From: Pseudomonadota bacterium
GTDB lineage: Bacteria; Desulfobacterota; Desulfobulbia; Desulfobulbales; SURF-16
Length of the DNA: 64,000 nucleotides
Direction: 5' to 3'
Assembly (NCBI GenBank): GCA_018816555.1
Contig: JAHIVT010000048.1
Location: forward strand, 62,001-126,000
Below the pieces are notes generated by a model. It was given only the letters and a program-made list of their open reading frames with translations. It was not told where the DNA came from and made no database searches. Within the stretch, counting starts at the first letter, position 1, and each line of letters starts with the position of its first letter. Shown piece after piece: positions 15,726-22,392 of this stretch. Made by a program: the position numbers and the translations under genes.

Positions 15726-15754
15726 AAAGTTTCCCAAACTGCAGGGGAAACTTT
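15726..15754 (-). terminator. Rho-independent terminator closing the actin operon
   Basis: On the minus strand, AAAGTTTCCC (15754-15745) pairs perfectly with GGGAAACTTT (15735-15726) around a nine-base loop, and a run of T follows. It lies just after the stop of the second MamK-like gene and before the UspA gene, which marks the three actin-region genes as a separate transcription unit. Confidence 0.8.
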
Positions 15755-15792: not shown

Positions 15793-16860
15793 CTAATCAG
15801 CTCCGAACATAACCCCGATTTCAGGCCATTTCTCTGAGGGAATCTCTGTGGCAAGCTTCAAGGCCCCGGCACTGCCGATAAATTCAGGGTCGTCCACACA
15901 GGTGACAACAACCTCGCCATAATCCTTCATCTGAAGAGCGATCATCCGGTCAAGCCCTCTTATCCGGGACCCGCCTCCGGCGAGAATGATATTTTTCAGC
16001 GCCTCTTCCTGGTCTTCCGGATCAAATTTCATGATCAGGGTCTCAAGCTGCTCAACAATGTCAGGGACAATAATTTCACAAACTGCGCTCACATCTTCTG
16101 TGACATCAAACTCAACCGGCTTGCCTTCCATACGCAGTTTGGCGATTACGGGCGCCTGGGCCGCTCCGACAAAGGCATGGGCTTCCTTGATCGAGCAGGC
16201 AACAGACTCGGTGATCTGCACTCCAGGATAATGCCGGGCAATGGAGCTCTGTAAACGCTCATCGATAAAATCACCGCCTTTGAGAAAGGTCACCTGGTCA
16301 TCCGCAGTGGGCACGGTTCCTTTCATGCCGCAGATGTCCACCGTGCCGGCGCCGATATCAATCACGATACAATTACTCAACTTGCCAAGCTGATAGGCTA
16401 CCATGAAAGGCTCTGAAACAACAAGGGCGACCGACATGACCTCTTTAGCGATATCAAGTAAAAGTTCCTTGTTCATTATCGAGGCGCGGGCCGGCACCCC
16501 GATAATGCCGCTCACCGGAGATTCAGTTCCTTGTTTTGCCATATCGACAATGTACTTTATCAGCTCATAGGCAGCATCATAGTCCCGTTCGCTGGCCTCG
16601 CGGATGACTCCATCAGCCAAAGGAAAGCAGAGATCAAGGAAACTGCGTTTCCTGATGGCGTCCTGGCCGATAATCGGTCCTTTGCCGACCATCCTTTCAC
16701 TGATGACATCCTTGGGATAGCCAACAACGGATCTGACCATAATACGAGCACCACGGTTGGACATGACCGCTGTGCGGCACGTACCCAGGTCAATGCCGAC
16801 AAGAAGCTGATTCTGCATATGATGCACTGTTTCCCGAGTGTTCTGTGGCTGGATTTCCAT
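15793..16860 (-). CDS. MamK-like bacterial actin, second copy
   Basis: A 355-residue actin/Hsp70-fold ATPase very like the magnetosome filament protein MamK. It shows the phosphate-1 motif GIDLGTCRTAVMS, the MamK-typical RSVVGYPKDVI, GVPARASIMNKELLL and VVSEPFMVAY segments, phosphate-2 IDIGAGTVDICGMKG and the adenosine motif AGGGSRIRGLD. It should polymerise into ATP-dependent cytoplasmic filaments. An ~20-residue N-terminal extension precedes the fold. It is paralogous over its whole length to the protein at 17465-18499, and a membrane coiled-coil gene lies between them. No other mam genes are in the window, so a magnetosome role is not supported here. Confidence 0.9.
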   Translation of the reverse strand: MEIQPQNTRETVHHMQNQLLVGIDLGTCRTAVMSNRGARIMVRSVVGYPKDVISERMVGKGPIIGQDAIRKRSFLDLCFPLADGVIREASERDYDAAYELIKYIVDMAKQGTESPVSGIIGVPARASIMNKELLLDIAKEVMSVALVVSEPFMVAYQLGKLSNCIVIDIGAGTVDICGMKGTVPTADDQVTFLKGGDFIDERLQSSIARHYPGVQITESVACSIKEAHAFVGAAQAPVIAKLRMEGKPVEFDVTEDVSAVCEIIVPDIVEQLETLIMKFDPEDQEEALKNIILAGGGSRIRGLDRMIALQMKDYGEVVVTCVDDPEFIGSAGALKLATEIPSEKWPEIGVMFGAD

Positions 16861-16956
16861 ATATGATTACCTTTTTGAAATTAAGTTCTCCGACAGTGAA
16901 GCGGCAAAACAAAAAAACGTAAATTCAGCGTCACCCACCTGCGGCGACAATGAGTC

Positions 16957-17451
16957 TCACTCGGCCGATTTCTCAAAATTTCCCTGCTGGCGCATCATGT
17001 TCCGCACGACGCCGGCCGGCAGATAATGGCTGCCCTGCACATAGATAAGGCTGTCATGAAAAGACCGGCGTTCATCATCGAGTTCCTTTTCAACATCGGC
17101 CAGTGATTTTTTTAATCCCGTATTCTCTTCAATCAGCTCTGCAACCTGATGCTTTTTCTCCTGCAGCATGGATTCAAGCCCGGGAATTACTTTTATTTTT
17201 TCCTCAACTTCCTGGCGTTGTTTCTTTTCGAACTGCAACTCATCCCAGTAGCGTTTGCTTTCGTCACGCACACTTTCCATTTTCGCCTTAACATCACGAA
17301 GCTGGCTGTTCAAAGAATTGACCTGTTCTTCGTAGCCGTTTTTCGTTTGTTCGCTTTCCTGTTTGCCTCTATTGCGCAGAAGATAGGCTGCGGTTCCGCT
17401 GCCGATGGCTGCACCTAAAGCAAGGAATAAAAACCAGATAAAAAAATCCAT
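16957..17451 (-). CDS. Membrane-anchored coiled-coil protein between the two actins
   Basis: A 164-residue protein with one N-terminal membrane helix (FFIWFLFLALGAAIGSGTAAYLL) and then a long, charged helical region (about residues 35-135) rich in E, K and Q with heptad-like spacing, for example EEQVNSLNSQLRDVKAKMES and KHQVAELIEENTGLKKSL. The C-terminal ~30 residues (SLIYVQGSHYLPAGVVRNMM) look folded. It starts 13 bp after the first actin gene behind AAAGAG. The topology recalls YhcB-like proteins, but I do not recognise the family. By context it may anchor, separate or organise the actin filaments at the inner membrane; that is inference. Confidence 0.8.
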   Translation of the reverse strand: MDFFIWFLFLALGAAIGSGTAAYLLRNRGKQESEQTKNGYEEQVNSLNSQLRDVKAKMESVRDESKRYWDELQFEKKQRQEVEEKIKVIPGLESMLQEKKHQVAELIEENTGLKKSLADVEKELDDERRSFHDSLIYVQGSHYLPAGVVRNMMRQQGNFEKSAE

Positions 17452-17464
17452 ATGATACTCTTTG

Positions 17465-18499
17465 TCAACTTAAGAAACCAACCTGACTCCACAGTTCCGG
17501 CGGCACTTCCGTTGCCATTTTCAAGGCGCCGGAACTGCCGATGTAGTCAGAATCGGCCACACAGGTTACCCGCACGTCTCCATACTCATGAAGCTGTGCA
17601 GTTATAAAGGAGTCAATGCCGCGGATTTTTGAGCCTCCACCGGCAAGATAGATGTTCAACAGAGCCTGCTGCTGGTCCTCAGGATCAAATCCCCTGATAA
17701 TGGTTTCCAGATGTTCAACAATATCAGGCACAATACTTTCGCAGACCAGTTGCAGATCTTCGGTAATGTCAAGTTCAACGGGTTTGCCGTTTATACGCAT
17801 GCTCACCTTCACCGTTTCGTCCGGTTCACCTACAAATCCGTATTGCTCTTTAATGAGTCGCACAAAATTCTGGGTGACCTGCACGTCCGGATAATGCTGC
17901 TGGATCAGGTCTTCAAGCCTTTCATCTATATAATCACCGGCTTTCAGCAGAGTAATCTGGTCCTTGGGAGAAGGGATGGTTCCCTTCATACCGCAGATAT
18001 CGACGGTACCGGCGCCGATATCAATAATAATTGAGTTATTGAGTTTGTCCAGTGAATAGGCAACCATGAATGGTTCTGAAACCACGACGGAAATAGACAT
18101 CAGATCCTGGGAAATTTTCAGTAGAAGCTCTTTATTGATGATGGATGCCCGGGCAGGAACGCCGATCACTCCGCAGACATCGTCTGTGCTTCCCTGACGT
18201 GCCTGTTCGATAACGTGCTTCATCAGTTCATAAGCAGCATTATAATCATTTTTGCTTGCCTCACGGATGACCCCATCTTCCAAAGGGCAATAAAGTGTGA
18301 GGGCTGAATGGTGTTTCAGGGCCTCGTCTCCAAAAACCTGGCTTTTACCGACAAGCTTCAGGCCGATTACATCCTTGGGATAGCCGACGACTGAACGGAT
18401 GATATCTTTATAACCTCTGTTTGTCATCACAGCCGTTCGTGATGTGCCAAGATCGATACCGACGAGTATACTATTGCTATTCTTTCCTGTATGCTCCAC
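17465..18499 (-). CDS. MamK-like bacterial actin, first copy
   Basis: A 344-residue actin-fold ATPase close to MamK: phosphate-1 GIDLGTSRTAVMTNRG, then RSVVGYPKDVIGLKLVGK, GVPARASIINKELLL, VVSEPFMVAYSLDKL, phosphate-2 IDIGAGTVDICGMKG, KAGDYIDERL and adenosine motif AGGGSKIRGID. I set the start at the GTG at 18497-18499, behind AAGGA at eight bases; an ATG at 18601 would add 34 residues of non-conserved sequence. It is the first gene of the unit actin - coiled coil - actin. Cytoplasmic filament formation is known for the family; what the filament positions here is not known. Confidence 0.9.
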   Translation of the reverse strand: MEHTGKNSNSILVGIDLGTSRTAVMTNRGYKDIIRSVVGYPKDVIGLKLVGKSQVFGDEALKHHSALTLYCPLEDGVIREASKNDYNAAYELMKHVIEQARQGSTDDVCGVIGVPARASIINKELLLKISQDLMSISVVVSEPFMVAYSLDKLNNSIIIDIGAGTVDICGMKGTIPSPKDQITLLKAGDYIDERLEDLIQQHYPDVQVTQNFVRLIKEQYGFVGEPDETVKVSMRINGKPVELDITEDLQLVCESIVPDIVEHLETIIRGFDPEDQQQALLNIYLAGGGSKIRGIDSFITAQLHEYGDVRVTCVADSDYIGSSGALKMATEVPPELWSQVGFLS

Positions 18500-18702: not shown

Positions 18703-20433
18703 TCATTTCATTTCTGCAAGAACCTGCCGCTGCTGCATGCGATCTTTTGCATTATAGGCAACATATATAGGTTTGCGATTGTATCGATCAAGTCCACAGA
18801 CATACATTGCTGTTGAGATGGTCCCGGGAGTCGGAGTAAAATCCTGGAATTGCCGCACCGTAAGCCCCATTTTACGCACGTCCCTGGCAAGTGCCTTCAT
18901 ATCATCGAGGCTGCATCCCGGATGGGCCGAAATAAAATAAGGAGTAAAAATACATTCTTTACCGGTTTCAGCTGCAATTTTCCGGCACAATGCCAAAAAA
19001 GCGGGTAAAATATCCGGGCCATGCTTATGCATCAACCGAAGCACATGGGCAACCGTATGTTCCGGAGCTATTTTCATGGCGCCGGGTGTATGGTCAGTCA
19101 ACAATTTTCTCAGCAAACGCGGGGTTTTCAGCAGGAGCTCCATCCGCAGTCCTGAGGAGACAAAGACGTTCTTGACCTTAGCGATACGGCTCACCCTGTC
19201 GAGCAGGCTGATTAATGGTCTTTCATCAATGGCAAGATGCCGGCACACCCCCTCATGCAGGCAATCATGGCGACTGCAGGCCTTGCTCCCGCAGCCTGTT
19301 CCATACAAATTAGCGGTGGGCCCACCAAGATCACTTATCGTACCGCGGAAATCATCCATGCGGGTAACCTGCTCCACTTCAGCCACAACGGACTCCTCAC
19401 TTCTGGAGGTAATCACAGGTCCCTGATGTCTGGAGATTGCACAGAACGAACAATTGCCGAAACATCCTCTGACAATGGTTACCGAGTGACTGATCATGCG
19501 GTACGCCGGCACGTCACCGGCTGCAGGATGGGCTTTACGGGTAAAGGGCAGGCTGTAGAGGCTATCCATTTCCGCAGTGTCAAGGGGATCTGCCGGGGGA
19601 TGCTGCACCACCCACATCGCCTGTTGTTTCTGCAGAAGTATAGCCCGGTTAAGAGACCTGGCATGTTTGTCGATCAAAAGCTCGGCGCTTAAATAAGCCT
19701 CTCTGTCCTGTTCAATTTCGGCAAGCGACGGCAGAAAAACATGTCCCTCACCGGCAATGCTCTGCTGCTGCGCATCGGTTAACCGCTGGCAGGTGCCGGC
19801 TATGCCCGCCAGATCTCGGCCGGCTGCCAGTCGTTGGGCCACCTCCACAACCGCCCTTTCCCCCATGCCGTAAACAAGCAGATCAGCTTTGGCATCCGTG
19901 AGTACCGAGGCACGCAATTTCCCCTGCTGGTAATCATAGTGGACAAAGCGCCGCAGCGAGGCCTCCAGACCGCCGAGAATGATCGGAATTGGTCCATAGG
20001 CACTTCTGGCCAGATTGGCATACCTGACGGTGGCACGATCCGGCCTGCGCCGCTCACTTTTTTCCCGGGACTCCCCGAAGTAGGGATTGCCCCCCGGGGA
20101 ATATTGATCAACATCGCGCACCTTGGCATTGCCGGAATAATTGGCCACTATGGAATCAAGATTGCCAGCTGTTATTCCCCAGAACAGGCGAGGCGGACCG
20201 AACTGTTTGAAAGCCTTGGAGGAGTCGTAGCGGGGCTGGGCCAGAACCGCCACCCGGAAGCCGCTAGTCTCAAGAAGTCTGCCGATCAGGGCAACACCAA
20301 AGGCGGGATGATCCACATAGGCATCCCCTGTGACCAGAATAATATCCACCTCATCCCAGCCGCGCAAACGCATCTCGGCAGCGCTTGTCGGCAAAAAAGA
20401 GGTGCTTTCGTCTTTGCTCTTTTTACTTCCCAT
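18703..20433 (-). CDS. YgiQ-family radical SAM protein (UPF0313)
   Basis: A 576-residue YgiQ-type radical SAM protein. The N-terminal domain has the family's [33 protein letters not shown] and FQFGPP-like segments, and the cluster motif is [12 protein letters not shown] second cysteine-rich stretch ([17 protein letters not shown]) is typical of the family, as is [13 protein letters not shown] near the end. The C-terminal extension seen in longer homologues is short here. The biochemical reaction is unknown. It starts 3 bp after the corrinoid-activator-like gene, so the two are cotranscribed. Confidence 0.93.
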
Positions 20434-20436
20434 GGA

Positions 20437-22392
20437 TCAACTCTTGTCGGCGGATGCGGCATTATTAAGCCGCATACCGCACTTGGGGAAAAGGCTTATA
20501 TCCGTATGGGGCAGAAAAAGTGATGCCACATATTGCTCTTTGAAATTTGCCACCTCGGAAAGTTCAAAGCTTGTCATCCTCTGGACAACTTCAACCACAT
20601 CCTGCCGGATATGATTACTCAACTCACTCATACGGGCTCCCATGAGCGACCCGTTACCCACATAAAGAACCCTGCCCGGATCAAATTCGGGCAATAGTCC
20701 CACGGTCATGGCGCTGTCAAGATCTATATAGGAACCAAAGGCCCCGGCCAGAATGATCTGTTCCAGATCGGTAACGGAGAGACCGACCTCTTCGATAAGT
20801 GTTTTCACCCCGGCATAAATTGCGGCCTTGGCCCGGATAAAGTTGCTGATATCAACTTCATTGATGCCGATATCCGAGTCAATACCGGCTTCATCCTGCC
20901 AGACCAGGACATATTCAAAACCGCTCTTTCCTTCACGGATGCGAGGTGTAGCAAGATCCCGTCTAAACCTGCCCCGCTGGTCGATTATTCCTTTTTCAAA
21001 AAGGGTGGCAACAATAATGAGCAGACCTGAACCACAAATACCCACAGGCGGCTTTCTACCGATGGTGATATTCATCGGTTCAAAAGTGCCTGGATCAATA
21101 CCGAAATCCGTAATCGCCCCATCGGACGCGCGCATGCCGAAGGTAATCCCCCCACCTTCAAAGGCCGGCCCGGCGGAACACGCCGCACATACCAGCCATT
21201 CCCTGCTGCCGATGACTATCTCGGCGTTGGTGCCGATATCGATATACAGGGTCAACTTGTTTGTGCGGTACATGCCCGAACCCATAACGCCGGCCACAAT
21301 ATCTCCGCCCACATAACTTGAGATGGCAGGATAGAGGAGAGCAATGGCATGACTGCTCAGTTGCAGGCCCAGGTCGGTGGCCCTGATGGGCGGGAAGAAG
21401 GTGCTTACCGGCACATAGGGGGCGCGTCGTATATTATGCGGTTCCAGGGAAAGGAAAAGATGGGTCATGGTGGTGTTCGCGGCAATGGTAATCGAATCGA
21501 TTTCATCCCGATCAATATCCGCCTCGACAAGCAGCCTGGCAACTATTTTGTTGATGGTGGATACGACAAGCTCCTGCATCAGTTCAGCACCTTTGGGTTT
21601 TTCAGCATAGATGATGCGGGAAATAACATCCTCCCCATAGCTGATCTGGCCGTTATAATCTCCGGCATTGGCGAGAATCTTGCCGGTATGGAGATCGATG
21701 AGTTGTCCCCAGACCGTGGTTGTGCCGATATCCACCGCGAGTCCGAAATTACGGTTGACCCAGTTCCCAGATTGTATATTGACTACATGGGTCTTGCCGC
21801 TTGGGTGGACGGGACGGGCCAAGGTGACGGTGACGTTAAAATCCTTCTCCCGCAGGGACTTTCTGATTTTACGCAGTACTGCAAGGCTGATGATCAGTCC
21901 ATGTTCGTCATACTGATTTTTCAGACCCTGGACAATACGACCGGCATCTGCCATATTGTCCGTGAGGGAGGTCGGGGGAAGCTCAAGGGCAACCTTTTCC
22001 ACGGGCGGAGAAAAAATACCCTCCCTGCGCAACTCCTCAATATCAAAATGATGCTCAAGTGCCCGGTGGCGGTCGATCACTCCATCAGACAAGCCTCCTT
22101 TCTGCATGGAGGAGGAAAGGGGAATACGCACACTAACATTCTCCGTGACGATGGCGGAACAGGCAAGCCGCACTCCCTTGTCAAAATCACCGGCGCTTAT
22201 CTTCTCACTCTTTTCCCCTTCGACCCTGCCGTGTTCGATCCGGATCCGGCATTTTCCACACACCCCGCTGCCGCCGCAGGACGCGTTGATATGTATCCCG
22301 GCCCGACGTGCAACATCAATGAGAATCTCACCCTTCTCGGAGTCAACCGTCCTGACCACCGGCTCAAATGTTACGCGAACTTTTTCCCCCAT
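20437..22392 (-). CDS. Fe-S/ASKHA protein of the corrinoid-activating (RACo/RamA-like) group
   Basis: A 651-residue protein. Residues 1-~95 are a ferredoxin-like domain with a [2Fe-2S] set C39-x5-C45-x2-C48 and C78. A linker is followed by an ASKHA-type ATPase domain (DUF4445), with FGLAVDIGTTTVWGQLID, YIDIGTNAEIVIG, ICGSGLL and LAGAFGSYIDLDSA. Family members use ATP to reduce Co(II) corrinoid proteins back to the active Co(I) state in the Wood-Ljungdahl pathway or methyltransferase systems. No corrinoid protein is in the window, so its partner is unknown. It heads a two-gene unit with ygiQ. Confidence 0.88.
   Translation of the reverse strand: MGEKVRVTFEPVVRTVDSEKGEILIDVARRAGIHINASCGGSGVCGKCRIRIEHGRVEGEKSEKISAGDFDKGVRLACSAIVTENVSVRIPLSSSMQKGGLSDGVIDRHRALEHHFDIEELRREGIFSPPVEKVALELPPTSLTDNMADAGRIVQGLKNQYDEHGLIISLAVLRKIRKSLREKDFNVTVTLARPVHPSGKTHVVNIQSGNWVNRNFGLAVDIGTTTVWGQLIDLHTGKILANAGDYNGQISYGEDVISRIIYAEKPKGAELMQELVVSTINKIVARLLVEADIDRDEIDSITIAANTTMTHLFLSLEPHNIRRAPYVPVSTFFPPIRATDLGLQLSSHAIALLYPAISSYVGGDIVAGVMGSGMYRTNKLTLYIDIGTNAEIVIGSREWLVCAACSAGPAFEGGGITFGMRASDGAITDFGIDPGTFEPMNITIGRKPPVGICGSGLLIIVATLFEKGIIDQRGRFRRDLATPRIREGKSGFEYVLVWQDEAGIDSDIGINEVDISNFIRAKAAIYAGVKTLIEEVGLSVTDLEQIILAGAFGSYIDLDSAMTVGLLPEFDPGRVLYVGNGSLMGARMSELSNHIRQDVVEVVQRMTSFELSEVANFKEQYVASLFLPHTDISLFPKCGMRLNNAASADKS

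Follow-up and report, generated by a model that had tools for sequence, protein, structure and literature searches.

The window analyzed here, a 64,000-nucleotide (nt) stretch of a 4.9-Mb draft genome (97 % complete) of the order Desulfobulbales whose close kin are Desulfobulbaceae and Desulfurivibrionaceae assemblies, carries on its minus strand a unit of three genes closed by a terminator. Its features are as follows:

17465-18499, minus strand: ActA, MamK-family actin-like ATPase, gene 1 of the unit, 344 amino acids (aa)
16957-17451, minus strand: coil protein (N-terminal membrane helix, long coiled coil, C-terminal hairpin-helix), 164 aa
17374-17445, minus strand: predicted membrane helix of the coil protein, approximately residues 3-26, from the hydropathy peak and charge pattern
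16996-17049, minus strand: C-terminal signature of the coil protein, IYVQGSHYLPAGVVRNMM, from an 18-member family alignment
15793-16860, minus strand: ActB, MamK-family actin-like ATPase, gene 3 of the unit, 355 aa
15721-15759, minus strand: intrinsic terminator of the unit, from folding (−12.2 kcal/mol, z of −2.9, T7 tail) and an inverted repeat

The intergenic gaps measure 13 nt between ActA and the coil gene and 96 nt between the coil gene and ActB. ActA starts with GTG downstream of an AAGGA-like site, and its length was set at 344 aa because the alternative longer open reading frame (ORF), reaching to 18601, begins with TTG and close relatives are 344 aa long. The coordinates of the three genes at 15793-18499, this GTG start included, were thereby borne out as given in the first-pass annotation, and the terminator that it had placed at 15726-15754 was confirmed on the transcribed strand as a 10-bp stem with a 9-nt loop and the T7 tail. 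The minus-strand form of this terminator was missed by a generic terminator scan and recovered by folding and the inverted-repeat search.

No cargo gene was linked to the triplet, the flanks being housekeeping genes that differ between families: at the window they encode a YgiQ-type radical SAM protein, an ASKHA activator protein, a stress protein and others, and the flanks of the related unit in family f5 (ATP synthase and others) likewise point to no cargo. The upstream neighbors at 18703-20433 (YgiQ-type radical SAM protein) and 20437-22392 (ASKHA-domain, corrinoid-activator-like protein) are found again next to the triplet in most of the close relatives, and the closed Desulfurivibrio genome likewise has an ASKHA homologue close to its triplet (L128 12434).

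ActA and ActB had been described as two full-length paralogous actins of the MamK type. They are 59 % identical, and both contain VVGYPKDVI, PARAS, and VVSEPFMVAY. Against the curated MamK model (NCBIfam NF040964, cut-off of 400 bits), ActA scored 494 bits and ActB 481 bits, while the MreB model gave 64-70 bits against its cut-off of 293. The next nearest actin family in the libraries is BeeR (NF053558, 8R2N), to which the triplet actins do not belong, as they reached 212 bits and the cut-off of that model is 530. BeeR identity was ruled out on these scores, and MreB identity on the scores and the tree described below; the source genome has two ordinary MreB genes elsewhere. The best structure match of ActA was MamK of 5JYG/5LJW (1.3e-119), and the solved structures nearest to the window actins were 5LJV, 5LJW, and 5JYG, the MamK entries.

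In a maximum-likelihood tree of 86 proteins with MreB as the outgroup, ActB sequences formed a clade with support of 100/99. A second, A-type clade (98/92) united ActA with the single actins of family f5, one actin of family f6, and the magnetosomal MamK of a magnetotactic-type Desulfobulbales genome (G029). The two clades joined at 99/99 within MamK, and MreB stood on a very long separate branch. Neither an ActA-only clade (AU P of 0.24) nor the exclusion of the G029 magnetosomal MamK from the group (AU P of 0.28) was rejected. The phylogeny called for in the first-pass annotation thus placed both actins, which also exceed the MamK cut-off, inside MamK and not with MreB. By sequence, the window actins are members of the MamK subfamily and not magnetosome MamK: they share approximately 50-60 % identity, signatures, and catalytic motifs with MamK but lie outside any magnetosome cluster, in genomes without MamM, MamO, and MamQ, as two paralogues with a coil gene, and one of the paralogues decays in some lineages. 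Their nucleotide-binding and catalytic motifs are complete, making both window actins candidate ATP-dependent filament formers.

An operon of an actin and a small partner gene is also the usual layout of ParM/AlfA-type systems that segregate plasmid or chromosomal DNA. For the triplet, we regard such a function as highly improbable, since the partner is a membrane coiled-coil protein and not a DNA-binding adaptor, a repeat search of the unit and its flanks revealed no iteron-like elements, the unit is chromosomal in a closed genome (G024), and the actin sequence is that of MamK, not ParM. Identity of the actins with ParM itself was ruled out by the curated scores, the tree, and the missing iterons.

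The absence of magnetosome genes from the surroundings of the unit had been noted from the window, and this held for the source genome as a whole, where a search for MamM, MamO, and MamQ revealed no magnetosome island. The genome-wide profile search gave 106 bits for MamM, 93 for MamO, and 92 for MamQ, i.e., only the level of general paralogues; the MamQ, MamM, and MamO matches were at levels that are presumably those expected of LemA-, FieF-, and DegP-type proteins. The models responded clearly to the positive controls (G058 and G029), a Magnetospirillum genome and the magnetotactic-type genome of Desulfobulbales. In the triplet genomes tested, including the closed one, none of the three proteins was found above the housekeeping level, and on these searches the unit was rejected as a magnetosome satellite. 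More broadly, the triplet could be a relic of a lost magnetosome system kept in a minor role, or such a satellite, given that the characterized members of MamK are magnetosome proteins, that magnetotactic-type genomes exist in the order (G029; PMC7449369), and that the A-type clade includes the G029 magnetosomal MamK, a placement whose reversal the AU test also permits. We consider this distinctly improbable in view of the missing MamM, MamO, and MamQ, the purifying selection on all three genes, their retention across several families, and the lack of a counterpart of the coil gene in the magnetosome loci compared. Furthermore, one genome with a two-gene form of the unit (G025) separately carries magnetosome-like genes: a magnetosome-type cluster with its own MamK lies on contig 2 and the actin-coil unit on contig 17.

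Magnetosome-type clusters were seen in several genomes of the same order, at L163 7235-9415 (G606), L132/L179/L180 (G025), L164 (G616), and L135 (G029), and three of them have a deep-branching MamK. G606 has a pair of adjacent MamK genes with no coil gene between them. The G029 magnetosomal MamK (L135 4973-6094), which groups with non-magnetosomal A-type actins, provides a sequence-based hint that mamK may have moved between magnetosomal and other settings.

The protein between the two actins had been annotated as having one membrane helix and a coiled coil, in agreement with our analysis: it contains a single hydrophobic stretch, which peaks at residues 3-21 and precedes positively charged residues, and AlphaFold2 modeled one helix over residues 2-133 with a mean pLDDT of 87. 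In nearly all members of the family, two to five Lys/Arg residues follow the membrane helix and none precede it; since the positive residues lie almost only C-terminal of the helix, the rest of the protein, including the coiled coil, is predicted to be cytoplasmic. At the tip, the model contains two strands (135-137 and 143-145) and a helix (146-163) with pLDDT values of 72-75, and this hairpin and short helix span the conserved IYVQGSHYLPAGVVRNMM segment. The C-terminal signature, FV.GSHYLPG.VVRNL, shows the strongest conservation within the family and is kept to its distant members, with His142 and Pro145 invariant in 18/18 members of the alignment. The modeled hairpin-helix tip is a good candidate for a functional contact.

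Beyond generic coiled coil, searches of Pfam, NCBIfam, and the structure databank gave nothing that resembles the tip; structure-database matches of the protein were of the keratin and GCN4 type, and MamJ, whose role the first-pass annotation had proposed for the protein, was not among the best 25 of the 34 families listed for it. The signature was also absent from the ORFs of the magnetosome loci compared. Remote matches of the coil profile outside the order, mostly ORFs of approximately 500 aa that are probably RNase Y, covered the coiled coil only, and chance coiled-coil similarity was dismissed as the basis of the family, which is defined by its C-terminal signature. In the source genome, the search for a second motif-bearing protein yielded one more DNA match (C101), which equaled the control count and whose surroundings showed no trace of a relative.

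A neighborhood search for actin/coiled-coil/actin triplets, suggested in the first-pass annotation, showed that the arrangement recurs. An over-cut-off MamK is present in 53 of 258 Desulfobulbales genomes, and 16 of the 258, namely the source genome and 15 further ones (among them Desulfurivibrio sp. AMeS2, G046), have both triplet actins and the coil gene; in G631 they are split across two contigs. The conservation of the actin pair and the coil gene in 15 further genomes is well beyond chance. The closed chromosome (G024; 3,097,763 bases) belongs to the same genus as AMeS2. The triplet is limited to sulfur-cycling bacteria of the order Desulfobulbales, where it is present in several families, and full-length matches of the coil profile were found only in those of the 258 genomes that have this actin; in a sample of 395 genomes of the phylum, end-to-end matches were likewise confined to Desulfobulbales. 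The coil gene may be described, from its sequence conservation, as a predicted membrane-anchored partner of the actins. Family f5 has a two-gene form, in which one A-type actin is directly followed by a related coil gene whose product ends in a C terminus of the same kind (HLLPGSxAR). The simplest history would be an ancestral unit of one actin and a coil gene in which the actin was later duplicated, and ActA and ActB have been distinct in the tree since before the families split.

The two actins have evolved unequally. In ActB, the catalytic Glu of SEPF is retained in 16/16 sequences and the phosphate-1 Cys signature GTCRT in 15/16. In ActA, Lys replaces the catalytic Glu in four genomes, all of one genus (G008, G016, G020, and G021), and both Desulfurivibrio genomes have Lys in place of the phosphate-1 Asp and a changed phosphate-2 motif; we counted these losses as two independent events. 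In MamK, as in other actins, ATPase activity and filament dynamics are lost when E143 or D161 is mutated (PMC5059902). All nucleotide-binding motifs of the source-genome ActA are intact. ActA identity was lower than ActB identity in 105/105 genome pairs (means of 58 % and 70 %), pairs that share ancestry and are not independent. All three genes of the unit are under purifying selection, and the dN/dS of 0.12-0.19 for the decayed ActA genes argues that they are not pseudogenes.

The first-pass annotation had left open whether the pair forms a heteropolymer or a two-track cytoskeleton. The decay of ActA under purifying selection beside an invariant ActB suggests that ActA works together with ActB, either as co-subunit or as cap, and the sequences speak more for a filament that is heteromeric or regulated than for two tracks of equal standing. 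Two separate MamK-type filaments that share one membrane anchor and differ in place or time would fit the complete nucleotide-binding motifs of both actins in the source and most triplet genomes and their distinctness since before the family split, and the intact ActA makes two independent filaments possible in the source genome. We nevertheless regard this arrangement as unlikely: a stand-alone dynamic filament would poorly tolerate the decay of its active site, which in two lineages affects an ActA still kept in the unit under purifying selection, and there is a single coil gene between the two actins.

A filament that organizes peptidoglycan remodeling at the septum or pole was weighed as well. 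In families f11 and f12 of the order, a related single MamK-family actin gene directly follows a second, membrane-anchored Amidase_3 gene, and stabilized MamK D161A filaments leave connected cells (PMC5059902). However, the actins linked to amidases branch as a clade of their own, the surroundings of the triplet contain no amidase or division gene, and genomes of the window type have no second amidase, so that we find a role in division or the envelope improbable for the triplet. The amidase-linked single actins occur at L157 7020-9213 and at L158, L159, L160, L161, L162, L165, L167, L168, and L175; their second amidase is AmiC-like, and the genomes tested (G513, G452, and G535) have an ordinary AmiC at another locus as well. 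A link between a MamK-type actin and peptidoglycan hydrolysis would be a separate finding in its own right.

Several known systems resemble the triplet in part. Magnetospirillum magneticum AMB-1 likewise has two paralogues per cell, MamK and MamK-like, one of them outside the main island (PMC2818848), but these belong to a magnetotactic cell and are not neighbors, whereas the triplet actins share an operon with a membrane protein in genomes where no magnetosome genes were found. The desulfobacterial relative Desulfovibrio magneticus RS-1 also combines two actin-like proteins, MamK and Mad28, with coiled-coil proteins (Mad20, Mad23, Mad25, and Mad26), which interact with both actins by two-hybrid (PMC12748827). 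Mad28 is a remote actin, only 15-17 % identical to MamK, with which it cross-interacts (PMC10653835), and the RS-1 coiled-coil proteins lack membrane helices and serve magnetosome chains, in contrast to the membrane-anchored coil protein of the triplet. Bbp (big bacteria protein), described in giant bacteria, is a MamK-like actin from a three-gene cluster of non-magnetotactic bacteria that include the cable bacterium Ca. Electrothrix gigas of the same order (PMC10580974). It falls between MamK and MreB and is clustered with a hypothetical and a Kelch protein, whereas the triplet actins lie inside MamK (in a tree without named Bbp sequences) and the neighborhood comparison revealed no Kelch gene adjacent to them. 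G503 has a MamK-like actin on a long branch (L166 7145-8152), encoded downstream of a gene for an FG-GAP beta-propeller, and this actin is possibly the Bbp of a cable-bacterium-type genome. No description of an actin-coil-actin unit was found in the literature searched. Non-magnetosomal MamK-like actins are thus a known kind, as are paralogue pairs and coiled-coil partners in magnetotactic cells; new within the searches made are the way the genes are arranged, the family of coil proteins that carry the signature tip, and a partner actin in decay.

Collectively, the explanation that we consider best, and favor with slight confidence, is a non-magnetosomal, membrane-tethered MamK-type cytoskeleton of ActB and ActA that positions a structure other than the magnetosome. 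The N-terminal helix would place the coil protein in the inner membrane, its coiled coil would lie in the cytoplasm, and the hairpin-helix at its tip would offer a binding surface for the filament or a client. ActB would be the ATP-driven, filament-forming, and hydrolyzing subunit. ActA, which would have arisen by duplication of an ancestral single MamK probably already located beside the coil gene, may co-polymerize as a second subunit or regulate the end or side of the ActB filament and would not form a separate track. The tethered filament may then position or segregate a non-magnetosome cell structure. A bolder version, possible but in our judgment probably too strong, posits an obligate two-component actin: one MamK paralogue would hydrolyze ATP, and in certain lineages the other would have turned into a pseudo-actin that is built into the same membrane-tethered filament. 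In non-magnetic bacteria, this filament would organize a compartment or complex that is yet to be described.

In metagenomes, MamK has served as the best single marker of magnetosome clusters (PMC7449369), and the triplet proteins, which pass the curated MamK cut-off in genomes in which no magnetosome genes were found, bear on that use. Lineages of the order pair MamK with differing partners, i.e., the coil protein, an amidase, or magnetosome genes, and it therefore becomes testable whether magnetosomes recruited a pre-existing positioning actin. The cultured genus Desulfurivibrio offers a natural experiment on the role of a catalytically dead subunit in a bacterial actin filament. If the two-component version is true, the MamK of magnetosomes would be one branch of a broader family of organelle-positioning actins.
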